Shown here one piece after another: positions 23,076 through 44,338 of a DNA stretch of 64,000 bases (positions are counted from its first letter, which is position 1; each line of letters starts with the position of its first letter). The DNA is from Phycisphaerae bacterium. GTDB lineage: Bacteria; Planctomycetota; Phycisphaerae; Phycisphaerales; UBA1924. A program made the position numbers and the translations under genes. The stretch lies in assembly GCA_030429705.1 (NCBI GenBank), contig JAUIES010000002.1, positions 436,001 through 500,000 on the forward strand. The letters run 5' to 3'. The notes beneath the pieces were generated by a model. The model was not told the DNA's origin. It was given only the letters and a program-made list of their open reading frames with translations, and made no database searches.

Positions 23076-23771
23076 TCAAGGCCAACCGATCGCGGATGCC
23101 AGATCCTGATTCCAGATCCCCAGCACTGGCTGAATCACATTCACCGTCACATCAATCGAAAAACCGAAGAGAAATCCGCCGACGGTCCAGAACGCCAGCA
23201 CGAAAATGCCGAGCCCGATCCACTGGCCGTTCGGACTATTCATCATGCGCTCGTACGCGGGTACGAAGGACCCGACAATCCGACTGCCATCGAGTGGCGG
23301 TGCCGGTAAAAGGTTGAAAAGAGCCAGCGCGATGTTCAGGAAGACTCCGACGAAGAAAAACTGGGACAGATTCGTGTACAGCGGGTCACTCACCTGATAC
23401 TTGTCAGCCAGCACAACCCACGCGACACAGCCGACACACGAAAACAGCGCCAGCAGGATGTTCATCCCAGGTCCGGCTGCCGCGACGATGGCCTCGCCGT
23501 GCCGCCCGCGAATACGCGACGGATTGATCGGCATCGCTCCCCACGCGATACCAATGAGTACCAGAACGAGCAGGCTGAAGCCGCCCATGTGCACCATCGG
23601 GTTCCAAGTCATGTGGCCTGTCACTCGTGGCGTGTCATCGCCGAGCCACATCGCAGCCCAGCCGTGGCTGAGTTCATGCAAGACGATCGAGACGATCACC
23701 CACACGATCCACGAGACAACAAACGCTGTCCCCATGCTTGCTTGCCAATTGGAAATCCACCATCCACTCAT
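23076..23771 (-). CDS. Site-2-protease-like M50 metalloprotease
   Basis: A 231-residue membrane zinc protease of the minimal M50B type. The zinc site is LHELSHG (H32, E33, H36) in the first helix region; the third ligand is D161 in NLLPAPPLDGSRI. About six hydrophobic helices, and no PDZ domain. Related proteins cut inside membranes, often to release regulators such as anti-sigma factors; the target is unknown. The frame is open to ATG 23843, but that codon lies at the base of the rplT terminator. ATG 23771 is preferred, with TACAGT 7 nt before it and no Shine-Dalgarno. Confidence 0.87.
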   Translation of the reverse strand: MSGWWISNWQASMGTAFVVSWIVWVIVSIVLHELSHGWAAMWLGDDTPRVTGHMTWNPMVHMGGFSLLVLVLIGIAWGAMPINPSRIRGRHGEAIVAAAGPGMNILLALFSCVGCVAWVVLADKYQVSDPLYTNLSQFFFVGVFLNIALALFNLLPAPPLDGSRIVGSFVPAYERMMNSPNGQWIGLGIFVLAFWTVGGFLFGFSIDVTVNVIQPVLGIWNQDLASAIGWP

Positions 23772-23844
23772 CGGGCACACTGTAGGGTCACCAGTGCTTC
23801 GATGTGCCAGCGTCCGAAACCTCTCACGCCGCGCAGAGGGCATG

Positions 23845-23874
23845 AAAAAACCCGCAACCGTGCAAGGTTGCGGG
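23845..23874 (-). terminator. Rho-independent terminator of rpmI-rplT
   Basis: On the minus strand CCCGCAACC and GGTTGCGGG form a 9-bp stem around a 6-nt loop, followed by TTTTTT (23850-23845). Confidence 0.9.
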
Positions 23875-23907
23875 TGAAGAGATCAAATCGTTATTCAGCC
23901 GAGCGAG

Positions 23908-29616: not shown

Positions 29617-30582
29617 CTAGGGAGCATCTTCTGGCGTGGTCGAATCTGATTCCCCGTTGTCGTCTGCATCCTCATGCGATTCAGTAGGCAGCGGCTCTAC
29701 CCATTGGCCATTTCGATACAACACCCGCTTGGGGTCAACACCAAAACGCAATGCGAGGTCGCCAATCTCAGGGTCGCGCATGGGCTCACCGAGATCAGCT
29801 GCGACCTGAGCGCCCCAGGACCTTTGACGACTGTTCAGCAGAAAAGACTCGAATCGGAGTTGTCCGATCAGTTCGTCTGGTGTCATTTCAGGTCCCGGAT
29901 TGCCACCACAGGTATAACACAATCGACGCTCGATGCGCCCGGTGTGTCGTTTGGTCACCACGCGATCGTTCCGGCACTCCGGGCATGGCCATTCCTTTGC
30001 CTGCCGTTCAAGTTCGGGGAGAATGTTCTGCTGAATGGTGCCAGTGATCAGTGCTGAATATCGCCTGATCAATCGTTGGACATCGTCCCGTCGCAGGTCG
30101 GCAACCGCGCGTGACCCCCAACCAGAGCGTATATGTCCAAGAGCCGTCGCCGTTTCAAAGGCGACATCGTCCGTCACGACCACATCCGTCGACCGGCTCC
30201 AATCGCGGATGCTGTAACGCGGATCAAGCATGCGAGCAATCGCCCACAGCACCCGTCGATCAGCATCGGCACGCGCCGTATCCGCCAGCGCGATGCACGC
30301 GCTGGCCGCCAGCGTCGCACCGTTCGGTTGATCGTGTGACTGCAAAATGGTGATGAGATAGAGACGCTGCACCAACTTGTAGTCTTGCTCAGTCCTCGCT
30401 TCGGCTGCCAACTCCTCACCGAGCGTGAAGTATGCTTCAGGCATGCTCGGGTCGAGTACTTCAAGTTGTTCTTCGATGTCAAGGAGCCCCGTTGGTTGAA
30501 CAGATGCCCCCCCATAAGCCGGACCAATCGGCAACGACATAATGACAACGAGTACCAATGTGAGGTATGGAACGCAGCTCAT
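29617..30582 (-). CDS. Secreted zinc-ribbon protein, last gene of the VWA/ExbBD operon
   Basis: A 321-residue exported protein (signal VLVVIMSLPIGPAYG). Residues of about 30-200 look helical and repeat-like. In the second half a zinc ribbon is formed by CPECRNDRVVTK and LCYTCGG, odd for an exported protein. The C-terminus is acidic (DADDNGESDSTTPEDAP). It overlaps the 898-residue gene by 4 nt (ATGA). No family is recognised. Confidence 0.75.
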   Translation of the reverse strand: MSCVPYLTLVLVVIMSLPIGPAYGGASVQPTGLLDIEEQLEVLDPSMPEAYFTLGEELAAEARTEQDYKLVQRLYLITILQSHDQPNGATLAASACIALADTARADADRRVLWAIARMLDPRYSIRDWSRSTDVVVTDDVAFETATALGHIRSGWGSRAVADLRRDDVQRLIRRYSALITGTIQQNILPELERQAKEWPCPECRNDRVVTKRHTGRIERRLCYTCGGNPGPEMTPDELIGQLRFESFLLNSRQRSWGAQVAADLGEPMRDPEIGDLALRFGVDPKRVLYRNGQWVEPLPTESHEDADDNGESDSTTPEDAP

Positions 30583-33275
30583 AATCCGTTCACTCCCAAC
30601 CGGATCTCCCAGAGTTTGGCCATGGCCCGTTCTGCAGCCGCGATTTGATAGAAGATATGTGATGCATCTCGCCGAGATTGACTCAGGTCCTCCAGGACAG
30701 TTTCAACAGCCGCACGATGGCTTGACTGTTCACTGACGACCACCACCGCCATTGTCTCGGCGAGCGCCAGTTGTTCGACGGCAAACTCTTGCACCATCCC
30801 GACCGCCAAACTGCGTCGACCTTCGAGTCGCCGCGCCACTTCGTTGATGGTCAACGCGAATCCCGCTGCAGGAATTCCCCGCTGCGCCGCCCGAGTCCAT
30901 CGAGCCCGCAGTTCTCGAACAGATCGTTCGGCAGAAGCAACAATGACATCACCCGAGTCTGTCATCGATAGCGCCGAACTCGTGCGCTGGTCATACGCCT
31001 CATCCAGAAGACGAGCAAGTTCATCCACACCAGCAACGATACTGTCTGCAGCGATGAGTTCGAGCAGTCGTTCGACGAGCGCCCGGCGAACAGCCAGACG
31101 CCATTCAGGATTGGTCCAATCGGGTAAGGGCTGCCCGGTGACACTGACGATCAACTCACTGATCATGGGGGTCGGCGCCATACGCGGCGATTCTTCGAGC
31201 AGCGCGTTGACAATCGCCGGCGACGAACCGAACAACTCGACGATGTCGCGCGCAGCGTCGCGCACGGCGCGACCACCACCGCGTAGCGCCGCTTCGACGA
31301 GGACTTCGGCATCGACGGAGCCCAGTTGACGGCGAGTGCTCGATCGAAGCTGAGCAAGGAGTCGCATTCGTTCCTCGGTATTCACACCTGCCAGCAAAAA
31401 CTGCTCGCCCCACCTGCCGTCTTGTGACTCACTGCCCATGTCAGCGCCAGACCCGTTTGGAGACGCACCCGGTTGGACCGCATAGTTGCTCAGAATGAGG
31501 TTGGCGGCTACGGCATCACCCTGCCAATGTGCCGATGCTGCAGCACTGATCCGAGCGTAACTGACTGCGATTCCGAGAGCGTCGTTCGAATCTCGCACAG
31601 ACTTGAGTTCGGCATCGAGTTGACCTGTTGCGTTGGTCAACGCATCGAGGATCGCGATATCGCTCCCCGGTGATTCGAGCCCCCACGCGAGCAGGTACTG
31701 GTCACGCAGACTTCGTCGATCAAGGTCGTTCGCCGATGCGGACAACACCATCGTTGGATCGATGTTGTCTGCGTCGGTCGCTGCGACGAGTGTCCGCGTG
31801 GCTGCACTCAATGAGGACGCGGGCACATTGCGATTGTCGAACTGCCGAACCATCCAGCGTTTGCTGTCATCGTTGTTGCGCCATGGCATCGCGCGAATCA
31901 CCGCCTCGATCGCTTCGTACATGTCATTGCGCGCTTCGGGGTCGATGGATTGCACAAGTAGTCGTTCCGCCCCCCTCGACAACAGACTGACTCTACGCTC
32001 GGCATCCGATGCCGTGACCGCGGCGGCGGCCCGAGCCCACCCGGTCCACGCCGATCCTCGTTCGTCGGGTTGGGTGGCCAACCCGTCCATGATCGACTGC
32101 AGGCAAGCCAGCGCACCTCCGGCAAAGCTGAGTTGGGCCGGTCGGCTGCCATCGAGTGAAGCCCCAAGCCAACGATCAATCAGCGCATGAGACTGTGCAG
32201 ACAGATCGCGTTCGCGGCGAATCCGCGTCAATGCACCGATGGACCACACTGCACGCTCGACCTCTTCCTGATCGAATGTGCCTCGACGCGATCGCAGCAC
32301 AATCGAGCCTCGGCCGACGGTGTTGAGGAGTGCTCGCGCATCGCCGGTCGGGCCGCCCAATCGGTACATCAACTCGACAATGGCATCCATCGCACGCGTC
32401 CGAACCGGAGCGGGCAACTCGAGCCAATCGGCAGAGAGCGCCTCCGTCGCGGCGACCGCTGACTGATGAGCCCCATCGAGATCCGACTCAGCAATCGAGA
32501 CCGCGTGAAGCAGAGTATCAAGGATCGCGTCACGCTCGACAACCATCCTTGGAACCGTTGTTGTCTGAGGCTTGGCTGATGCTGCATCCCCATCAGTCGG
32601 AAGTAAGCCTGGTTGAGACGGCGGCGCCGCATCCATGAGTGCTGATTGCGTCCCGGTATCTTTGACCAATGCTCGGTCACCCGTCACAACGAGCACCGTC
32701 CATACTGTGCCGACAATCATAAGAATTGCGACTAAACCGATGACGATCGACCAGTGGTTCCTGGAGACTGCGGAACGAGAGGGAAATGCGTCGTCGGGAG
32801 ATGCACCTTGAGCGGCGCTGGTATTTCGACGCCGCGTGGACATGTGCCGAAGTGTTTCGGCCACATCTGAGGCGCGCAGCCCGCGTGAGTGCGCGAGCGC
32901 CATGAGCCTTGGCAGACTTTTGCGTGTCCACCCGCCAAACATGGCGAGCGTGAGGATGACATCTTGTTCCAAGCCGACCATCGCAGCAGCGCGTGCACTC
33001 GAAGACTGCCCCCTGCGCAGGTGTGACCGAATGGCCGGGTTGAGTAACTGAGCCGTCGCCGCGTGCAGTGCCAGTCTGACTTCGTCAGAGGCTGGCGATT
33101 GTCCCTGGGGGTGGGCATCGATTGCCTGCATGCGTCGGTCGCGGGCCGAGATGATATCGAGATCCGAAAAGCCATCCGGTGGCAACCCCAGTAGGGCGCA
33201 AGGACCACCGCGCGCAGCCTCGGCCCCTAAAAACTGCTCCACAAAACTCACAGCATGGCGCCGCCCGGTGGTCAT
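30579..33275 (-). CDS. Large membrane protein with degenerate J-domain
   Basis: An 898-residue protein. Residues of about 26-89 (CALLGLPPDGFSDLDIISAR, AIDAHPQGQSP, LLNPAIRSHLRRG) follow the helix pattern of a DnaJ domain, but the catalytic HPD is HPQ at 55-57, so it should not stimulate Hsp70. One transmembrane helix lies at 176-197 (SIVIGLVAILMIVGTVWTVL). The roughly 700 residues outside are helical and repeat-like, with no family recognised. It overlaps both neighbours by 4 nt. Confidence 0.82.
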   Translation of the reverse strand: MTTGRRHAVSFVEQFLGAEAARGGPCALLGLPPDGFSDLDIISARDRRMQAIDAHPQGQSPASDEVRLALHAATAQLLNPAIRSHLRRGQSSSARAAAMVGLEQDVILTLAMFGGWTRKSLPRLMALAHSRGLRASDVAETLRHMSTRRRNTSAAQGASPDDAFPSRSAVSRNHWSIVIGLVAILMIVGTVWTVLVVTGDRALVKDTGTQSALMDAAPPSQPGLLPTDGDAASAKPQTTTVPRMVVERDAILDTLLHAVSIAESDLDGAHQSAVAATEALSADWLELPAPVRTRAMDAIVELMYRLGGPTGDARALLNTVGRGSIVLRSRRGTFDQEEVERAVWSIGALTRIRRERDLSAQSHALIDRWLGASLDGSRPAQLSFAGGALACLQSIMDGLATQPDERGSAWTGWARAAAAVTASDAERRVSLLSRGAERLLVQSIDPEARNDMYEAIEAVIRAMPWRNNDDSKRWMVRQFDNRNVPASSLSAATRTLVAATDADNIDPTMVLSASANDLDRRSLRDQYLLAWGLESPGSDIAILDALTNATGQLDAELKSVRDSNDALGIAVSYARISAAASAHWQGDAVAANLILSNYAVQPGASPNGSGADMGSESQDGRWGEQFLLAGVNTEERMRLLAQLRSSTRRQLGSVDAEVLVEAALRGGGRAVRDAARDIVELFGSSPAIVNALLEESPRMAPTPMISELIVSVTGQPLPDWTNPEWRLAVRRALVERLLELIAADSIVAGVDELARLLDEAYDQRTSSALSMTDSGDVIVASAERSVRELRARWTRAAQRGIPAAGFALTINEVARRLEGRRSLAVGMVQEFAVEQLALAETMAVVVVSEQSSHRAAVETVLEDLSQSRRDASHIFYQIAAAERAMAKLWEIRLGVNGL

Positions 33276-35959
33276 GGGTCTGACCCTCCGGGAAGGGGGA
33301 CCGCGGGCTGCAACTCAAGCCTGGCCTCCAGCGCTCGCAATTTTGGGCCGTACGGATCAGGGCCGTAACTCGGGTACATGACACGATGTTGCACCATCGC
33401 ATCACGAGCACCCTGCGGGTTCAAGTTGATCATCAACCGAATCGCGTTGTACCGCGCTTCAAACCATGGCTCTTCACCAGCGTGGTAAGTTGCTGAGAGC
33501 GCCGTCCACGCTTCGAGCGAGGCCTGCGGATCGCTGACCAACTCACTGAATCGTGCGAGAACTCGAAGCATGTCTTCGGTCCAAATGTCGCGTTCAAACC
33601 AGTCCTTGGACAATCGAAGCGCAAGCGAACGCATGTTCTCGTCCTGATGTTCATCCCAAAGCCATGCGGCAGCCTCCACCACATGATTGACGACACCCAA
33701 CAGCGCCTGCTGCGACAACCGATCACCCGGGTCATCCGGATTCGCCAGGATCCGTCCACCAAATCGGACGAGTGCCGTTGCCTCTGCCACGCCGGCATCT
33801 GGCATCGACCACGCCTGTGTTGCCGTGCGATAGAGCGTTCGGTCCGCGTGCCTGGCGAATCGTCCTCCGATTCGAGTCAGCCGCGTCAGTTGCGATTCCA
33901 CTTCGTCCATCTGTCCACGCGCCAGAGCAATCTGCAATCGGCGATAGGCGAGTTCACCTTCGAGTTCGCCAAGCCCCATGCCCATTTCGTTGGCAATGCG
34001 CTCAAGCGTTGTGATCGCACGATCGGCACGATCCAGTTCGGGTGCTCGACTTGAAAGCACAACATCGAGAATCTGGCGAACCAGGACGACGACAGATTGC
34101 GATGCCTTCACCTTGTCCTCGGGCTCACCTTCTGAAACCGCTGCTTCATCAATGCGCAGCAGTTCTTCCGCAACTGTCAAAAATCGTGACGCTTCCGCGT
34201 CTTTGCGTGATGCCGGCGACCCGCGATAAGCCCGATACAACAACCGGATCAGATGACGACGGGCAGTCGCGTAAATCGGACTCGAAGGATCGACCGCAAA
34301 CAACACTTCGATAGCATGATCCGTATCAGCCGTACTTGAGTCTGCCTGACGCAAAAGAAGGAGTGCCGCTCGTTCGACACTCGGGAACTCAGCAATGTAC
34401 AACCCGCTGAGACGCTCGGACCATTGACGGGCTTCTTCGCTACCGGCTTCAGCTGCTCGGTCGAGCGCCACCACCGCCATCCAGAGGGCTTCTTCACGAA
34501 TGCGATCATCGGTCGCGACAGCCGCACACTTTTCGAGTGCCTCGGCCGCATCCAGCATTCGACCACGATAGTAATCGCTCAGCCCCCAACTGAGCCCCGC
34601 ACGCGCGCGATCCATCGGATAGGAACGAGCATCTTCGGCTTCAAATGCACCGCGAAGCAAGTCGCTGCTCGACGCATACATTTGCGCGATTTCAATCGTT
34701 GTTGTCGGCTTCTTGTTGGTACCGTCCGCAGACTGATGCGCCTTCCTCGCTTCGTCATAGGCGAGAAGCCCACGCACATATCCAACGATAAACCCATCGC
34801 CGCCCAGCGGGAGCGTACCGAACTGCTTGAGCAACGAGAGCACCTGATTCACCTCGCCGCGCGCAACCAGATCACCGACACCGATCCCAGCCAGCCGTTC
34901 TGCCGGGCCGCCTCGGGTGGCACCAGACTGCACGCCCTCGCGCATCGCAAGAACCGCGAGCAATCGTGCATCGTGCGTATTCAACGACTCATCCCCGCGG
35001 CGCGTCGCGACCTCAGAAGCCAGATCGTCCCACCGACCAGCGTTCGCGAGCAACTCCATATTGCGCCCAAACAACTCATCGCGGACGGTCGGATGGAGTT
35101 CGGTCGACTGTCGCAACTGGCGCATCCAGGTCAGCGCACCGCCATGATCATCTTCGAGCGACTTTGAAAGGGCGATCGCCATCGCAGCCCGCGCAACATG
35201 TTCGTATCGGACAAGCGCTGACCCCAATTGCTCGATGGACGGCGATCGGCCTTCAGCGTTCAACATCCAACCAAGATCGCCTTGTGCACGATGGGCATCG
35301 TTTGCCCCCCCATCGAGCAAAGCCAAGTAATACCCCGACCAACCAGCGTAATAGAATGCCGCAGATCGTTCTGCGGTCGCCTGTTGCAACCGTGTTGCGA
35401 TCTCACCCTGAATCGAATCGTTTCCTCGTGACTGTTGACGCTTGAGCATGTCAACGCGACGGACGAGCGCTTGCCCTAAATCATCGAACGCTTCTCGCAC
35501 CTCGCGAAGCACCCGTTTGGCTTCAGCCACATCTTCCGGCGTGGATGACCCCAGTCGCCAGTGCTCCGCGATTGACTCCGCTGGTGCATAGCGCGCTTTG
35601 GCAAGTTTGATGCGCAGGCCGAACGAATCGATGTCGGGCACGAACTGAAACAAATGAGCGCTCAGATCTTCGAGTTCGCGCCTTCGTTCATTCGATATGT
35701 TCTCGCCGAGCATGCTGGCGTAGATGTCCGCCAATCGTTCAGCCATCTCAAGCCGATCGTCACCGGATGCACGACCGAGACGCGAACGCAACTGGGTCGC
35801 CTGCAGTTCCTCCAACTGATGCATCTGCATGTAGCGTTCGACGATCGCATCCGGCGAATCGGGGTTCACCAACTCATCCTGCGCCCGCGCGTCATGAAAC
35901 GCAAATACGACTGCAACCACTGACACAATCGCTCTAATTGGAACCACTCGACGGCACAT
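33272..35959 (-). CDS. Large secreted helical-repeat (TPR-like) protein
   Basis: An 895-residue exported protein; signal peptide CRRVVPIRAIVSVVAVVFAF with a cut after ARA. The rest is almost all alpha-helical, with TPR-like segments (SDYYRGRMLDAAEALEKCAA, ARKDAEASRFLTVAEELLRI), suited to bind proteins in the periplasm. ATG 35959 is chosen because AGAGGA lies 4-5 nt upstream and the signal peptide starts there; it overlaps the end of the ExbD gene by 26 nt. It ends in an ATGA overlap with the 898-residue gene. Confidence 0.82.
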   Translation of the reverse strand: MCRRVVPIRAIVSVVAVVFAFHDARAQDELVNPDSPDAIVERYMQMHQLEELQATQLRSRLGRASGDDRLEMAERLADIYASMLGENISNERRRELEDLSAHLFQFVPDIDSFGLRIKLAKARYAPAESIAEHWRLGSSTPEDVAEAKRVLREVREAFDDLGQALVRRVDMLKRQQSRGNDSIQGEIATRLQQATAERSAAFYYAGWSGYYLALLDGGANDAHRAQGDLGWMLNAEGRSPSIEQLGSALVRYEHVARAAMAIALSKSLEDDHGGALTWMRQLRQSTELHPTVRDELFGRNMELLANAGRWDDLASEVATRRGDESLNTHDARLLAVLAMREGVQSGATRGGPAERLAGIGVGDLVARGEVNQVLSLLKQFGTLPLGGDGFIVGYVRGLLAYDEARKAHQSADGTNKKPTTTIEIAQMYASSSDLLRGAFEAEDARSYPMDRARAGLSWGLSDYYRGRMLDAAEALEKCAAVATDDRIREEALWMAVVALDRAAEAGSEEARQWSERLSGLYIAEFPSVERAALLLLRQADSSTADTDHAIEVLFAVDPSSPIYATARRHLIRLLYRAYRGSPASRKDAEASRFLTVAEELLRIDEAAVSEGEPEDKVKASQSVVVLVRQILDVVLSSRAPELDRADRAITTLERIANEMGMGLGELEGELAYRRLQIALARGQMDEVESQLTRLTRIGGRFARHADRTLYRTATQAWSMPDAGVAEATALVRFGGRILANPDDPGDRLSQQALLGVVNHVVEAAAWLWDEHQDENMRSLALRLSKDWFERDIWTEDMLRVLARFSELVSDPQASLEAWTALSATYHAGEEPWFEARYNAIRLMINLNPQGARDAMVQHRVMYPSYGPDPYGPKLRALEARLELQPAVPLPGGSDP

Positions 35960-36356
35960 AGGTCCTCTTCGTAAAACCCGCATCATGGGCTGCTTGCAGC
36001 GCGGTCGCAGCCGCTTGAATCGGTACTCGATCATCCACCTTCACGGCCACGCCGGCCTCCTTGGGCAGTTGCGTCAAGATGGCCTCGAGCGCTTGACCGG
36101 TAAACACCGCTCGTTCGCCGATGCGAAACCCGACACGACCCTGGATCATTTCGACAGACACCACCTGAGGCTGCAACTCAGAAATGCTCGAACCAGACTG
36201 CTCACTTTGGATCGTCGCCTGGAGTCGGTCTTCACTCTGGCTGAAGTTTGCCGTGAGCAGAAAGAAGATGAGCAACAGAAAAACAACATCGATCATGCTC
36301 GTCATGGGGACGGACCCGAGTGCGGATGCTTGCAAGCGTGCCGGTGACATTCTCAT
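35934..36356 (-). CDS. ExbD/TolR-family protein (second copy)
   Basis: A 140-residue single-helix protein. The helix PMTSMIDVVFLLLIFFLLTA carries the conserved Asp (D23) that takes part in proton flow in ExbD/TolR. The periplasmic domain is short (RVGFRIGERAVFTGQALEAI, VAVKVDDRVPIQ). It overlaps the first exbD copy by 4 nt. Two exbD genes after one exbB gene are frequent in planctomycetes and Bacteroidetes; a mixed dimer is possible. Confidence 0.9.
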   Translation of the reverse strand: MRMSPARLQASALGSVPMTSMIDVVFLLLIFFLLTANFSQSEDRLQATIQSEQSGSSISELQPQVVSVEMIQGRVGFRIGERAVFTGQALEAILTQLPKEAGVAVKVDDRVPIQAAATALQAAHDAGFTKRTYVPSSGSN

Positions 36357-36784
36357 GGCGCCCCCCCGCTCGGATCAGTCGTCCCGATGCGCCAGCGGCG
36401 AACGCCTCGCTCGCGCAGATCGAGCGCCAGACCGTTGAGATGCCGCGCCGCCAGTGAACGATCGGGACGAACCAGAATCGTGACTTGATCAGGTCCTCCG
36501 CTGCGCCCGATCTCTGTATCGACCAGCCGCAGAAACTGAGCCCGGCTCATGGTTCGGCCATCGACAATGAGCGAACCGTCGTCAGCCAGATCAACAGCAA
36601 ATGAAGGCGGTTCTTCCACCGGCGACTTCTCGCCAGCCTCGAGAGGTAACGCCACCTCGGTCTGTGTGATCTGTCCAAACTGTGATGTAAACATGAAAAA
36701 GATGATGAGTTGCAAGACCACATCAATCATCGGGGTGAGATTGAAACTGAGAACCTTGGGACGGGATGGACGCGCGAGTTGCAT
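36353..36784 (-). CDS. ExbD/TolR-family protein (first copy)
   Basis: A 143-residue protein. The helix NLTPMIDVVLQLIIFFMFTS holds the conserved Asp (D21). The periplasmic part (LIVDGRTMSRAQFLRLVDTE, VTILVRPDRSLAARHLNGLA) is the usual ExbD fold. ATG 36784 lies one base after the stop of the tolQ-like gene; the frame upstream is a read of that gene. Confidence 0.92.
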   Translation of the reverse strand: MQLARPSRPKVLSFNLTPMIDVVLQLIIFFMFTSQFGQITQTEVALPLEAGEKSPVEEPPSFAVDLADDGSLIVDGRTMSRAQFLRLVDTEIGRSGGPDQVTILVRPDRSLAARHLNGLALDLRERGVRRWRIGTTDPSGGAP

Positions 36785-36785
36785 G

Positions 36786-37499
36786 TCAGGTGTTCCGCCC
36801 CGGGCCGTTGCTTGGCGCACCAGCGCCAGACTCGAGATGTGCCGCCAGGTCTTCGATGATCTGCCCGACTTCGTCAGCGAGCGTGTCGATTCGATTCCTC
36901 AGGAAGGTGTACGCTGCAGTCGCTGGAATCGCAACGATCAGACCGAGCACTGTGGTAATCAAAGCCTGCGAGATATTGCCGGCGAGTGCATCAGGACGAA
37001 CCGGCCCGTCTGCCGCCTGAATGGCATCGAATGCACCAACCATGCCGATGACGGTTCCAAGCAGCCCGAGCATCGGCGCGATCGCAGCGATCAGATTGAT
37101 CCCATCTGTCAAACGATACAAACGGGCCACCTGCAATTGCCCGACTTCCTCGAGGGCTGCTTTGAGTTCGAGAAAGCCGAACGGACTTCGGCTGCAACGA
37201 ATCAGCGCCGAACCCACAATCCTGGTCAGGAACGACCCGTGGTCCGGGCTCTGGCAAAAGGCGATCGCCTGTTCGACCTGCCCCTCTCGCAGGTGCCGGT
37301 CGAGCGTATCGATTGATTCCGGGGGGGCGAGCGCGGCTCGCCGGACCCGAATCAACTGTGCGACGATCAGAACAACAGCAACGAACGAGAGCATGATGAT
37401 GACCAGCCCCACCGGTCCACCCTGCGCCACATAGGTTAGCAGGCTCTTGCTGGTTGCACTGCTCGCAGGAGCTGCCAAGGTAATCAAATCGTGATGCAT
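36786..37499 (-). CDS. MotA/TolQ/ExbB proton-channel family protein
   Basis: A 237-residue channel subunit with three transmembrane helices (about 28-50, 125-150, 165-190). The conserved segments NLIAAIAPMLGLLGTVIGMV and NISQALITTVLGLIVAIPAT are present with the threonines of the proton path. With ExbD partners it turns proton flow into motion. The start ATG 37499 has a near-perfect site GAGGTGAT just upstream and lies one base after the previous stop. Confidence 0.94.
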   Translation of the reverse strand: MHHDLITLAAPASSATSKSLLTYVAQGGPVGLVIIMLSFVAVVLIVAQLIRVRRAALAPPESIDTLDRHLREGQVEQAIAFCQSPDHGSFLTRIVGSALIRCSRSPFGFLELKAALEEVGQLQVARLYRLTDGINLIAAIAPMLGLLGTVIGMVGAFDAIQAADGPVRPDALAGNISQALITTVLGLIVAIPATAAYTFLRNRIDTLADEVGQIIEDLAAHLESGAGAPSNGPGRNT

Positions 37500-37500
37500 A

Positions 37501-38697
37501 TCACCTCTCAATGGTTCGTGTCGTTCGTATGGATGTCGCTTGCAGACTATTCAAATGAGAGCGTACCGCATCCAGATTGGTGGCGGCGTGGGTGCTATAG
37601 GCATCGCGCAATTCGGTAAACAATGAGTTCGCACCCGCAGCATCACCCAATGCATCGAGCGCCAGGGCCGACTCTGCCAAGGCGATCCCCGCGAGATATG
37701 GTTGACTCTTGCCAAAACGCGCAGGCAAATGCAGTAACTGAATCACACCCCGGCGTTGTGATTCTCGATCAGACTCGCGCAAGAGCGAACGGCCGATACC
37801 AAGCCGACACCAGGCTTCGATCCACGCGTGATCGGCACTTTCTCGACGGGTTCCGGCCATCTCTGATTCGAGCGTGCTTCGAGCCGCTTGTCGCTGTTCA
37901 GCATCACCAACTCGGGCAAGAACAATCGCGTGCACCAGTCGCACGCCGTCGTCAGCAAGATCAGTCTTGGTCAGTGACAAGTCCGGCGAGCCAATCGTCA
38001 AACCACACTCAAATCGGGCAGCGTGTCGATAGAGACGCTCAAGAATTTCCGCACGCTTGGGGCCGATGTCTTGCGATTGATCCCACACGACGATCGGTTC
38101 GGATCGGGCAAAGACTTCGACCGCTGGGGTCTTCATCCAGACAGGAGCGAGCGAGGGGACCAACCCGGTCTCCTGATCACACGCCGGTCGCAGAGCCCCG
38201 ACCATGCGTGACTGATACGGACCCGCCTGAGCCGAAACCAGATACGCGAGCCACGGGCGTATCGCCGCGGTCTGTGCGCTTCGACGCAATCGACATCGCA
38301 TGAGTCCTTCCGCGACCATCGATGCCATGTCGCTGCTCAGACCTTCATAGACCGGGTACAACTCTTCAAAGATTGGTTCCGCTGTGACCGCGTCGCCTCG
38401 TTCGAGTCTCGTCCGCGCTCGCCATGCGAGTCGACCGAGTCGCAGGAACGGCTCCGCCTCTTCTGCATGCGCGCCGGTCAGTGATCGTACGAAGTCCCAT
38501 CGAACAGTTCGTTGAACCCCGAACGGGTCCTCGAACACGATTCCGCCATAATCCAAATCGAGGATCTCGCCATCCGGCACTTCGCGGCCGCTCCATAACT
38601 GCACCTCGGGCACCGCTGCGTCATCCGGGGTCGCGTCTTGTGCGTAAGCAACACACATGACCAGGCACACAAACGACGCAAACCAGCGGAGACTCAC
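37501..38697 (-). CDS. Secreted protein of unknown function in the VWA/ExbBD operon
   Basis: A 398-residue exported protein (signal SLRWFASFVCLVMCVAYAQ). Early residues VQLWSGREVPDGEILDLDYG and GVQRTVRWDFVRSLTG look like a small beta domain of the kind seen in planctomycete proteins that sense a default value; the rest is helical and repeat-like. It overlaps the VWA gene by 4 nt. No family recognised. Confidence 0.78.
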   Translation of the reverse strand: MSLRWFASFVCLVMCVAYAQDATPDDAAVPEVQLWSGREVPDGEILDLDYGGIVFEDPFGVQRTVRWDFVRSLTGAHAEEAEPFLRLGRLAWRARTRLERGDAVTAEPIFEELYPVYEGLSSDMASMVAEGLMRCRLRRSAQTAAIRPWLAYLVSAQAGPYQSRMVGALRPACDQETGLVPSLAPVWMKTPAVEVFARSEPIVVWDQSQDIGPKRAEILERLYRHAARFECGLTIGSPDLSLTKTDLADDGVRLVHAIVLARVGDAEQRQAARSTLESEMAGTRRESADHAWIEAWCRLGIGRSLLRESDRESQRRGVIQLLHLPARFGKSQPYLAGIALAESALALDALGDAAGANSLFTELRDAYSTHAATNLDAVRSHLNSLQATSIRTTRTIER

Positions 38698-39671
38698 GGG
38701 CTCGCCCTTACATGCTTGTACAGCCCCCCCGAGTCCCGCGCAATATCGCGCAGCCTGTTCTCGACTTGCGCCCGGATCGCGGCGTTACCGATGTCACCAA
38801 ACATGATGCAATGGACGGGAACCTTGGTTCGGCCGTTCAGTTGCCGCACCGCGCCAACCACCTCGTCTGAAAACTCGCCGTCGGTCATGAAGTAGATTGC
38901 GTCCGGCCTCGGCCTCATCTTGAAAATCATCTCAAATGCGCCCAGGGGCTGCGTGCTGCCATTGGCTGTGACATCCATGATGTCGCGGCGCAGGCTGATC
39001 TTCGTGCGCTTGTCAGTCTGATACCACTTGACACGACCAGTCAATGGCGACGGGCCGTTCGAATACAGCACCACACAGACCTCGCCGCTCTCACTCATCG
39101 CTGAAATGGACCGAGCGAGTTCGGCCTTGGTCTGATCCATCTTGCCGCCCGAGTTCATCGAACTGGACCGGTCGACGATGTATGCAAATCGGCTCCCCTG
39201 CGCTTCGACGCCGAAGAAACTCGCGCCGTCGCCACTGAGTCCTCCACCACCCGATGTTCCGTCGTTGAGTGAACCCGTCGAGATATCGCCGCCGCCCGAT
39301 GAGACATCGAGATCGACCATCTCCTGCATCAACGCGTCTATTTCGCCGCCATCCTGCTCGCTGACCAACTCGATGTCTTCAAGGCTTGGCGAGGCGAGTT
39401 CCGGAGCATGGGTTGCGCTGACCCGGGCGGCATCGTCGGTCATTTCGGCGAGTTCGGCTTCGCTCATGACTGCGAAATCAACCGTTTCTGCCCCACTGCC
39501 CCCTGCGTCGCCACCTTCATATGTCACCGTGAACACCGCGGCGATCAGCAGCGCCACGACATGAACCATGACGCTGGCACCGATTCCCACGAAAGTTGCT
39601 CGGCGAAACCAGAGCCAGCCCTGGGCGCCCTTTTCGCTCGTTCGACTTGCGGTTTCCGTGTGATCGTGCAT
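38694..39671 (-). CDS. VWA-domain protein on a TonB/TolA-like transmembrane helix
   Basis: A 325-residue protein, first gene of the operon. About 25 cytoplasmic residues lead into one helix (about 26-48) with S33-V-M-V-H37, the S-x3-H pattern of the TonB anchor helix that couples to ExbB/ExbD. A low-complexity Gly/Asp/Glu linker (about 52-155) follows, then a von Willebrand A domain with a full metal site: D167-R-S-S-S171, T240 and D264 (YFMTDGEFSDE). So the domain should bind Mg and a ligand. No Shine-Dalgarno is seen at ATG 39671. There is no TonB or TolA C-terminal domain. Confidence 0.88.
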   Translation of the reverse strand: MHDHTETASRTSEKGAQGWLWFRRATFVGIGASVMVHVVALLIAAVFTVTYEGGDAGGSGAETVDFAVMSEAELAEMTDDAARVSATHAPELASPSLEDIELVSEQDGGEIDALMQEMVDLDVSSGGGDISTGSLNDGTSGGGGLSGDGASFFGVEAQGSRFAYIVDRSSSMNSGGKMDQTKAELARSISAMSESGEVCVVLYSNGPSPLTGRVKWYQTDKRTKISLRRDIMDVTANGSTQPLGAFEMIFKMRPRPDAIYFMTDGEFSDEVVGAVRQLNGRTKVPVHCIMFGDIGNAAIRAQVENRLRDIARDSGGLYKHVRASP

Positions 39672-41592: not shown

Positions 41593-42204
41593 TTAGCGGC
41601 GACGACGCACAGCGACGAGCCCACCGAGCCCGAGCATCGCCAGGCTGCCAGGTGCCGGGATGAATGAAACCGATACATCATCAATGAAGAGAACCATAAC
41701 GCTACTGGGATCGGCACCAGTCACGGATGCGAACTGCAGCGTCACACCGCCGCTCACATCAGGGCCGGCTGCGAGTGAGAAGTTAAAAACCTGCCATTGA
41801 TCAGTCAAGGCCAGCGGCGTACCGCCCAGAAGGACACTGTCCGACACACCACCGCCGTCAATCTCCGAGAAAAACTCTGCAAATGCGACACCGCCGGCCG
41901 CGCCTGAGCCCTTGGCAGCGAACGAAATATCGACTGTGTCCCCTGCGCTAATCACGCCTGCACCGAGGTTGGCCTGTTTCACCACCGCACCTGAGGCAAG
42001 TGTGTCATTGAACAGCTCAGCACCAAAGTTGCCGCTATTCGCGTCGATGGTCACATTAAATGTTGAACTGGCTGTCGGGAACGAAACCCAGCCTGAGGTG
42101 TCACCAGTTTCGAAACCGCCGTTGACGGCGAAATCGGTACCCGCTGTGGCTGTGGCCGCGGCTGCGGCGACGAGCGATACGACGATCATTGTCTTGTTCT
42201 TCAT
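41593..42204 (-). CDS. PEP-CTERM-like secreted protein
   Basis: A 203-residue exported protein: signal peptide (IVVSLVAAAAATATA), a jelly-roll-like domain that resembles carbohydrate-binding modules (DFAVNGGFETGDTSGWVSF, TLQFASVTGADPSSVMVLFI) and a C-terminal sorting tail, IPAPGSLAMLGLGGLVAVRRRR split as PAPG, hydrophobic helix, RRRR. The tail is the PEP-CTERM type recognised by exosortase. Start ATG 42204, AGAGG about 9 nt upstream. Two palindromes lie in its promoter. Confidence 0.88.
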   Translation of the reverse strand: MKNKTMIVVSLVAAAAATATAGTDFAVNGGFETGDTSGWVSFPTASSTFNVTIDANSGNFGAELFNDTLASGAVVKQANLGAGVISAGDTVDISFAAKGSGAAGGVAFAEFFSEIDGGGVSDSVLLGGTPLALTDQWQVFNFSLAAGPDVSGGVTLQFASVTGADPSSVMVLFIDDVSVSFIPAPGSLAMLGLGGLVAVRRRR

Positions 42205-42313
42205 GGTCAGATTCCTCTCTGCTAGGCGACCGCCTTGGTCGCACACTCCAATAAACACCATTGGAACAGATGATCTCACGGAAGGCGGATTGGATGAGAT
42301 CTCCAATGGCACG

Positions 42314-42371: not shown

Positions 42372-42847
42372 CGATAAATCGTGATTTTTCCGGACGAAAG
42401 CACGATATTCTCTGCCAGAGGCAGCCGAGTCGATGCCGAGTTCGTAACCAGGACCGTTCAGATTCACAATTTGCCCACCAATTATCGCTTTTCGGCCCTC
42501 AAAGTGTCTTTGTCGCGATTCTCGGCGCCTCGATCCGTCCTGGTCCGTCCTCTGGAAGGGACCCCTCTGGCTTTGATTCTCTTTTGCGTGCTTGATCCGC
42601 GCCAATCCAAAACCAAAGCTTGATCCGTACATCTCCCGCAGCGGTGTGTGCGGATCGCGCTTCGATATGGAAGAGTCCCGCATTGAAGCGGCCTCGTTCG
42701 TGTGTTGCCGTGTTTGTCGCAAAACGCTCTCGAACGGCATTGCGGCAAAAGCAAAGAGACAGTTAAACCGATGGTGCGCAGTTGGTGTGAGAGGACTGGG
42801 TGTGCGCGCAGAGCCGCAGCCTGTAAGTGGCTCGCTACACTGGGGCC

Positions 42848-44338
42848 ATGTGCAGTCTCCGCCATGTTGCCGTGCCGTGTCAGGCCGCAGTCTACATCCT
42901 CGTCTTCACGCTCAGTGCGTCGTATTCGCACGCTCAAACCTTCGTCGATCGCACCGACGACCTCGGGCTCGCCATCGGCAACGGACCGGCTGCCTTTGGT
43001 GATGTCAACGGCGACGGCTGGCCGGACCTCTACGCCGGCGGGGCCGTCTGGCTGAACAACAAAGGCACCGCCTTCACCCGCATCGACGCGCAAGGCTACG
43101 GGCTCATCGCCGACCTCAATAACGACGGCCTTGGCGATCTGGTCTCCATTTCCCCCCCGGCCATTGCGTTCGCCGAACGCCATGAAGGGGTCATTCGATT
43201 CAATCCCATACCGCTGCCCGAACTCCCGAGCACGGTCTGCCGCGGAGCCGCCGCAGCCGACTTCAACAACGACGGCTTTGTCGATCTTTATATTGGCGGC
43301 TACGAGGCCTGGGAAAAGCAGATCACCTACCCCGATCTGCTGCTGATCAATCAACAAGGCACGGGCTTTGTTGTCGTGCAACTCCCCAAGTCGTTCCGGG
43401 CGCGCGGCGTCACTGCCTGCGACTTCGACGAAGATGCGGATGTCGACATTTATGTTTCCAACTACCGGCTGCAGCCAAACTTGCTGTGGGTGAACGACGG
43501 TCACGCATCGTTCACCGACTCCGCCGAACAAAGCAATGCGATCGCCACCAGCCAAGGCTTCGGCGGCGGGCACTCCATCGGGGCCTGCTGGGGCGACTTT
43601 GACAGCGACGGCCATATCGACCTCTTCGCCGGCAGCTTCGCCCACAACGACTCGCGCGGTGACCAGCCGAAGAGTCGGTTCCTTCGGAACATGGGAAACG
43701 AGCACGAATTCGTCTTTGAAGACCTCGGCGAATGCGGCGTGTGGTATCAGGAAAGTTATGCCAGCCCCGCCAGTGCAGACTTTGACAACGACGGCCACCT
43801 CGATCTGTACTTCACCATCGTCTACGCCAATGCCAGCTTTGGCAAGAAGAACCACCCGGTGCTCTACCGCAACCAATCCACCACGGATGCCTGGGTCTTC
43901 GAAGACATCACCGCCGGGTCTGGCCTTGAACAACGCCCGGCGACCTATCAAGCCGCCTGGGCGGATGTCGATCGAGATGGCCGAATCGATCTGGTGACGG
44001 GTGGCCGACTTTATATGAATACGACGGCCAAGGATGCCCATTGGCTCCAGATTCGTCTCATTGGCGATGGCCTGGCGATCAACACGCACGCGATCGGTGC
44101 TCAGGTTCGCATCACACTTCCTGATGGCCGAACACTCACCCGTCAAGTTGAAGTCGGCACAGGTGAAGGCAACGCCAACAGCCCGATCCTCCACTTCGGA
44201 CTCGGATCGATTGCCGGCCCGGTGCGTATGGTCGTCCACTGGCCAAACGGCCAAACGGATATCATGCGTGGCGTCAAACCTGACCGCGTCGTCGATGTTG
44301 ACTTCACTCCAGCTCCAGCCACCGATGAAGATGAGTAG
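42848..44338 (+). CDS. CRTAC1-like secreted protein (FG-GAP/VCBS repeats, ASPIC/UnbV domain)
   Basis: A 496-residue exported protein with a signal peptide ending SYSHAQ. Several FG-GAP repeats with calcium loops of the form DxNxDGxxD are visible (GDVNGDGWPDLYAGG, DFNNDGFVDLYIGG, DFDSDGHIDLFAGS), folding as a beta propeller. The C-terminus (IGAQVRITLPDGRTL, HFGLGSIAGPVRMVVHWPNG) is the ASPIC/UnbV domain. Binding or adhesion is likely; the ligand is unknown. ATG 42848 has no Shine-Dalgarno, but TACACT ends 7 nt before it; GTG 42827 is in frame. Confidence 0.9.
   Translation: MCSLRHVAVPCQAAVYILVFTLSASYSHAQTFVDRTDDLGLAIGNGPAAFGDVNGDGWPDLYAGGAVWLNNKGTAFTRIDAQGYGLIADLNNDGLGDLVSISPPAIAFAERHEGVIRFNPIPLPELPSTVCRGAAAADFNNDGFVDLYIGGYEAWEKQITYPDLLLINQQGTGFVVVQLPKSFRARGVTACDFDEDADVDIYVSNYRLQPNLLWVNDGHASFTDSAEQSNAIATSQGFGGGHSIGACWGDFDSDGHIDLFAGSFAHNDSRGDQPKSRFLRNMGNEHEFVFEDLGECGVWYQESYASPASADFDNDGHLDLYFTIVYANASFGKKNHPVLYRNQSTTDAWVFEDITAGSGLEQRPATYQAAWADVDRDGRIDLVTGGRLYMNTTAKDAHWLQIRLIGDGLAINTHAIGAQVRITLPDGRTLTRQVEVGTGEGNANSPILHFGLGSIAGPVRMVVHWPNGQTDIMRGVKPDRVVDVDFTPAPATDEDE

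Follow-up and report, generated by a model that had tools for sequence, protein, structure and literature searches.

What is a VWA domain doing behind a membrane anchor that looks like that of TonB? TonB and TolA are the textbook carriers of inner-membrane proton energy to the outer membrane. In a stretch of 64,000 nucleotides from a Phycisphaerae bacterium (contig JAUIES010000002.1, positions 436,001 to 500,000; here called the window), an earlier note made from the letters alone pointed to a VWA protein with a Ser-x3-His motif in its only helix, and proposed that it would be a new kind of energy-transducing protein. The named relatives belong to the Phycisphaerales (Planctomycetota), and we used them, together with structure prediction and the published work, to ask whether the motif is real, whether the protein has a motor and whether its kind is new.

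Architecture of the VWA protein

The gene and the features of its product are as follows.

38694-39671, minus strand: putative vWA force-transducer gene, 325 aa, with a match in 57 of 61 relatives
39516-39632, minus strand: single N-terminal membrane helix, residues 14-52 (AlphaFold2 model)
39561-39575, minus strand: predicted motor-docking motif S33-VMV-H37, S and H each in 54 of 56 homologues
38706-39227, minus strand: VWA domain, residues 149-322 (PF00092, AlphaFold2, PDB fold matches)
39159-39173, minus strand: MIDAS D167-x-S169-x-S171, each residue in 56 of 56
38952-38954, minus strand: MIDAS T240, T in 54 of 56 and S in 2 of 56
38880-38882, minus strand: MIDAS D264, in 56 of 56

The reading frame 39671-38694 contains S33-V-M-V-H37 exactly as the earlier note had read it, inside the sole hydrophobic helix of the protein, and no Asp occurs in the sequence of this helix. 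The AlphaFold2 model, which was built on 54 homologues, has one long helix (residues 14-52), a linker (residues 53-148) that is mostly of low confidence and includes a short helix (residues 71-82), and a VWA domain (residues 149-322) whose block-mean pLDDT is above 90 nearly throughout. The VWA domain is also recognised by Pfam (PF00092, E 1.4e-6), and its fold matches in PDB include ITIH4, the calcium-channel alpha-2/delta subunit, CLCA1 and bacterial BatB VWA domains. The metal site named by the note is complete, with D167, S169, S171, T240 and D264 supplying the whole D-x-S-x-S...T...D pattern. Because the MIDAS residues are invariant, it is plausible from the sequence that the VWA domain binds a metal and grips a partner in a metal-dependent way.

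Conservation of the Ser-His motif

The note had proposed aligning homologues to see whether the Ser and His are invariant, and they are nearly so. In an alignment of 56 homologues drawn from relatives, with identity down to about 15-20%, 54 retain S33 and 54 retain H37, and the next-best column of the helix is A44 (40 of 56). With named genomes added there are 119 distinct VWA sequences, five of which have another architecture (L045, L046, L084, L086 and L090). Among the homologues with both ExbB and ExbD in the examined locus DNA, His is found in 92 of 92 and Ser in 90 of 92, the two exceptions carrying Ala (L050) and Thr (L184); homologues in the same operon context that lack both residues, which the note had named as the case against its proposal, are absent from this set. 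In L049 the aligned helix reads TSLLFH, with Ser and His present. Relatives of the VWA protein are spread through the phylum sample, and among the best matches beyond the order all 16 have the His and 15 of them the Ser.

The sole true His exception (L043) has Asn for His; its contig ends 499 bases past the gene, and the same genome carries a second copy with SGGLH that adjoins ExbB. L046, which has neither Ser nor His, was considered as a loss of the motif and rejected, as it is a paralogue with no motor genes in the examined DNA; its genome has another VWA copy with SLLLH next to ExbB.

For comparison, we screened the 526 hydrophobic helices of another 889 long ORFs from these loci; only 3 of them (<1%) contain S-x3-H, and 2 of the 3 seem to belong to additional copies of the VWA protein. 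Conservation and background counts together rule out a chance origin of the motif. Among the reading frames of at least 150 aa in the window, the sole other S-x3-H helix is SIVLHELSH (23076-23882, minus strand), a membrane helix that contains an HExxH motif, and for this reason its protein is probably a site-2-type membrane protease and not a transducer.

A D-box-like strand in the linker

In E. coli TonB, residues 43-54 (QPISVTMVTPAD) form the D-box, which is captured as a beta strand by the ExbD pair and follows the pattern hydrophobic-hydrophilic-hydrophobic-hydrophilic-hydrophobic-hydrophobic-hydrophilic (PMC10907165). A similar segment lies in the linker of the VWA protein.

39462-39482, minus strand: D-box-like strand V64-DFAVM-S70 at His+27 (sequence pattern; definition from PMC10907165)

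Residues 64-70 read VDFAVMS and start at His+27, and ISVTMVT of TonB starts at His+25. The D-box call comes from the sequence pattern, with Ala at a place that is hydrophilic in the published pattern, and the AlphaFold2 model draws no strand at V64-S70. The consensus of the family is [VI]-E-[FL]-A-[VI]-[LM]-[ST], with E-L three and four residues further on. When Ala was allowed at the fourth place, the pattern was found between His+25 and His+31 in 23 of 54 homologues, all except one of them at His+25 to +28, whereas 200 shuffles of the linkers gave 0.8 on average and never more than 4; elsewhere in the linkers there was 1 match in 3774 positions. The strict pattern is missing in 31 of the 54 homologues, and the most distant homologues differ. 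With the Ser-His conservation and this strand at a near-TonB distance, the idea of a TonB-type anchor joined to a VWA domain holds up. Four homologues with no dedicated motor (L068, L075, L077 and L037), which are few, deviate from the strict pattern and retain Ser and His despite this deviation.

Motor subunits and their predicted docking residues

ExbB and two ExbDs are linked to vwa across the order, and two distinct ExbDs are present at 85 loci. Their genes in the window are the following.

36786-37511, minus strand: ExbB/TolQ-type motor subunit (PF01618, E 1.5e-26)
36353-36820, minus strand: ExbD/TolR-type subunit 1, membrane Asp D33 (PF02472, E 4.2e-17; D33 in 92 of 92)
35934-36356, minus strand: ExbD/TolR-type subunit 2, membrane Asp D23 (PF02472, E 1.2e-15; D23 in 85 of 85)

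According to cryo-EM, Ser16 and His20 of E. coli TonB contact Ser34 and Trp38 of ExbB, the Trp being linked on to Pro190, and His22 of E. coli TolA contacts Ser28 and Trp32 of TolQ (PMC12215075). In the operon ExbBs, S42 (95 of 95), P196 (94 of 94) and the pore threonines T153 and T187 (94 of 94) match by position Ser34, Pro190, Thr148 and Thr181 of E. coli ExbB. In the TM1 register, which was placed by eye since HMMER finds nothing significant in that stretch, the position of ExbB Trp38 and TolQ Trp32 is taken by V46 and, in relatives, mostly by V, L, M or I. This Trp is one of the main contacts of the His in TonB and TolA, and as it is replaced, the pocket is not identical to theirs. Other ExbB copies in these genomes also carry the TM1 Ser, and some carry Trp. 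The TM1 Ser was thus ruled out as a marker of VWA partnership; being shared by other ExbBs, it is a trait of the ExbB family, and the absence of Trp is what sets the operon ExbB group apart.

The operon and its genome

The gene order on the minus strand is vwa, a TPR-like gene (398 aa), exbB, exbD1, exbD2 and then genes for proteins of 920, 898 and 321 aa. The ends of vwa and the downstream operon genes overlap on one strand, and the gene set is retained in most relatives examined. Besides the transducer and its motor, the operon encodes four proteins.

37501-38697, minus strand: 398 aa protein, predicted to be exported, with a TPR-like solenoid and a small beta domain at its N-terminus (AlphaFold2 mean pLDDT 89.9)
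33272-36034, minus strand: conserved protein of 920 aa with an N-terminal signal-like segment, no Pfam family
30579-33275, minus strand: conserved protein of 898 aa, no Pfam family; its single hydrophobic segment lies near residue 180
29617-30582, minus strand: conserved protein of 321 aa with a signal-like N-terminus; C200, C203, C222 and C225 invariant (14 of 14 sequences)

In the AlphaFold2 model of the 398 aa protein, a signal segment is followed by a small beta domain and then by an alpha solenoid, and its best fold matches are TPR proteins, all weak and none under E 0.001. The signal-like and hydrophobic segments of the other three were read from the sequence; the 321 aa protein looks exported, and its cysteines form a zinc-ribbon-like CPEC...CYTC pair. 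Searches of these four proteins against Pfam and NCBIfam gave no informative family. Among the operon proteins, Pfam detected no MoxR-type ATPase, there was no TolB or Pal family match, and no second transducer gene was recognised in the operon.

In the genome as a whole, no TonB_C (PF03544), TonB_2 or receptor plug (PF07715) domain was detected, and there are four ExbB-family and five ExbD-family matches. The genome also encodes Omp85 and OmpA-type proteins, which favours the presence of an outer membrane.

Operons without motor genes

In five relatives (G004, G012, G015, G019 and G029) the 398 aa gene is directly followed by the 920 aa gene, and the examined locus DNA contains no ExbB-like ORF. 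One of them (G012) has an ExbB-ExbD-ExbD set of the same type at another locus, and in the other four, which are 92-98% complete, the best ExbB matches elsewhere are all of other types. By topology alone, the VWA tree (FastTree, midpoint-rooted) spreads the five operons over at least three places. Ser and His are kept in all five.

In E. coli, TonB and TolA are each able to work with the motor of the other (PMC12215075), and the simplest reading of the five genomes is that the VWA transducer can likewise use another motor of the cell, with gaps in the assemblies as a further possible cause. Since the motor is absent or moved in these five and the anchor is kept in all of them, we suggest tentatively, and with less than even confidence, that the VWA transducer and the four non-motor proteins encoded with it (the TPR-like one and those of 920, 898 and 321 aa) may form one envelope machine of the Phycisphaerales, and that a general ExbB-ExbD-ExbD set of the cell could power the transducer in trans.

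Comparison with known transducers

Inner-membrane-tethered vWA transducers with an SHLS motif were described by Williams-Jones et al. (Mol Biol Evol, June 2025; PMC12204202), who found them in the PVC group beside a TPR gene, tolQ and two tolR (Fig. 4a,b). The claim of a new kind of energy-transducing protein therefore falls, and because that paper already describes the class, our finding is an independent rediscovery from raw sequence, combined with a family-wide test. A literature search gave no description of the class beyond that paper. The VWA protein is likely, by its sequence, a member of this class, which is so far purely predicted and whose Tichowtungia founder is compared here by description only.

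With the first family of PMC12204202 it shares a single TM helix with the Ser and His of SHLS, a disordered linker of about 100 residues (53-148) with a predicted motor box (V64-S70), a C-terminal VWA fold in place of the TonB or TolA domain, and synteny with TPR, tolQ-like and two tolR-like genes. However, the Leu and second Ser of SHLS (S-x3-H-x6-L-x3-S) are replaced by A44 and T48, so that only the Ser-His half matches; vwa is first in the operon, whereas the vWA gene of the published class is often downstream; and three more conserved genes follow here. The second family (TPH-vWA) also has a membrane-tethered VWA protein next to a TolQ-like gene, but it has no Ser-His, a proton-binding Asp in its own membrane helix and no tolR, and the VWA protein is the opposite in all three.

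The likeness to E. coli TonB consists of the Ser-x3-His anchor, the D-box-like strand about 25 residues past His and the ExbB and ExbD partners. Unlike TonB, the protein has a VWA domain instead of the TonB C-terminal domain, no proline-rich linker and neither the Leu nor the second Ser of SHLS, and its host genome has no TonB-dependent receptor plug (PF07715). E. coli TolA resembles it in the Ser18-x3-His22 anchor (PMC12215075), the D-box-like sequence (PMC10907165) and the TolQ and TolR relatives alongside; the TolA C-terminal domain and the long helical domain II are missing here, as is any TolB or Pal match in the operon.

A predicted motor box is mentioned for the class in PMC12204202, and over that paper the D-box-like register and its count are new, as are the conservation tests, the missing ExbB Trp, the further conserved operon genes, and the five genomes in which motor genes are absent from the operon and the anchor is kept.

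Proposed mechanism and alternatives

From the observed anatomy, residue conservation and gene linkage, together with the independent published prediction of the class, it is very probable that the VWA protein is a motor-docked proton-motive-force transducer of the vWA class. Helix 14-52 would sit against the outer face of an ExbB pentamer, with S33 and H37 as its docking residues. The ExbD1/ExbD2 pair, whose membrane Asp would carry protons, would capture the D-box-like strand 64-70 and by its movement would pull the flexible linker. The VWA domain, via a metal at the MIDAS, would then keep hold of a load, either periplasmic or located at the outer membrane, and the likeliest candidates for load or scaffold would be the exported proteins encoded alongside, in first place the TPR-like one of 398 aa and then those of 920, 898 and 321 aa. 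Points that weigh against this reading are the replaced ExbB Trp, the TM1 Ser shared with other ExbB copies, the lost Leu and second Ser of SHLS, and the 31 homologues of 54 that lack the strict D-box pattern.

Anatomy alone cannot separate force from gating, and the protein might dock on the motor without transmitting force. As a regulator or a tether it would then detect some periplasmic ligand with its MIDAS and open or close the ExbBD proton channel. This would suit the proposal of the cryo-EM authors that signals may pass through the Ser-His network to ExbB TM3 (PMC12215075), and the suggestion of the D-box authors that the helix may serve localisation (PMC10907165). However, a pulling protein agrees better with the D-box-like strand near TonB spacing and with the length of the linker, about 95 residues that are mostly disordered, and with no other transducer gene recognised in the operon we regard pure regulation as unlikely. 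Alternatively, the protein could be a generic VWA membrane protein, of the type of BatA/BatB or CoxE, that serves as an assembly factor and carries Ser-His incidentally; in favour of this, BatB domains are among the fold matches and family members also match the VWA_3 and VWA_CoxE profiles. This is disfavoured and very unlikely, because Ser and His are near absolute while the remaining helix drifts, S-x3-H is rare in the background, genes for ExbB and two ExbDs accompany vwa across the order, and a MoxR-type ATPase is missing among the operon proteins. A rotor-type transducer with its helix inside the ExbB pore could be imagined after the example of the second vWA family of PMC12204202, in which vWA proteins are likewise paired with TolQ-like pentamers; in that family, though, a membrane Asp is present and tolR is absent, whereas the helix here has no Asp and two Asp-bearing ExbDs are encoded next door, and we give this arrangement almost no credence.

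If the VWA protein is a transducer, a third sort of load may be pulled besides those of TonB and TolA, because no TonB is detected here and yet a TonB-like docking code is present, in a protein with relatives across the phylum sample. The analysis names exact residues for mutation (S33, H37, V64-S70, the MIDAS, and S42 and V46 of ExbB), and the absent ExbB Trp offers a probe of how the published Ser-Trp-Pro coupling network works without Trp.

Other transducer-like genes and neighbours

Tandem pairs of VWA-transducer-like genes were observed at four loci (L250, L255, L087 and L047) from more distant families of the order, where both genes encode S-x3-H or A-x3-H helices and the pair adjoins ExbB and several ExbDs. 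In the window, a PEP-CTERM-like exported protein (41593-42312, minus strand) and an FG-GAP/UnbV_ASPIC repeat protein (42827-44338, plus strand) are also encoded. In G004, a 1096 aa protein (L225, 2639-5929, minus strand) is encoded next to an ExbB-ExbD pair; besides an internal SLLIH helix it contains propeller repeats (PD40, TolB-like) and gives a weak squalene-cyclase-like match, and it is perhaps another transducer architecture.
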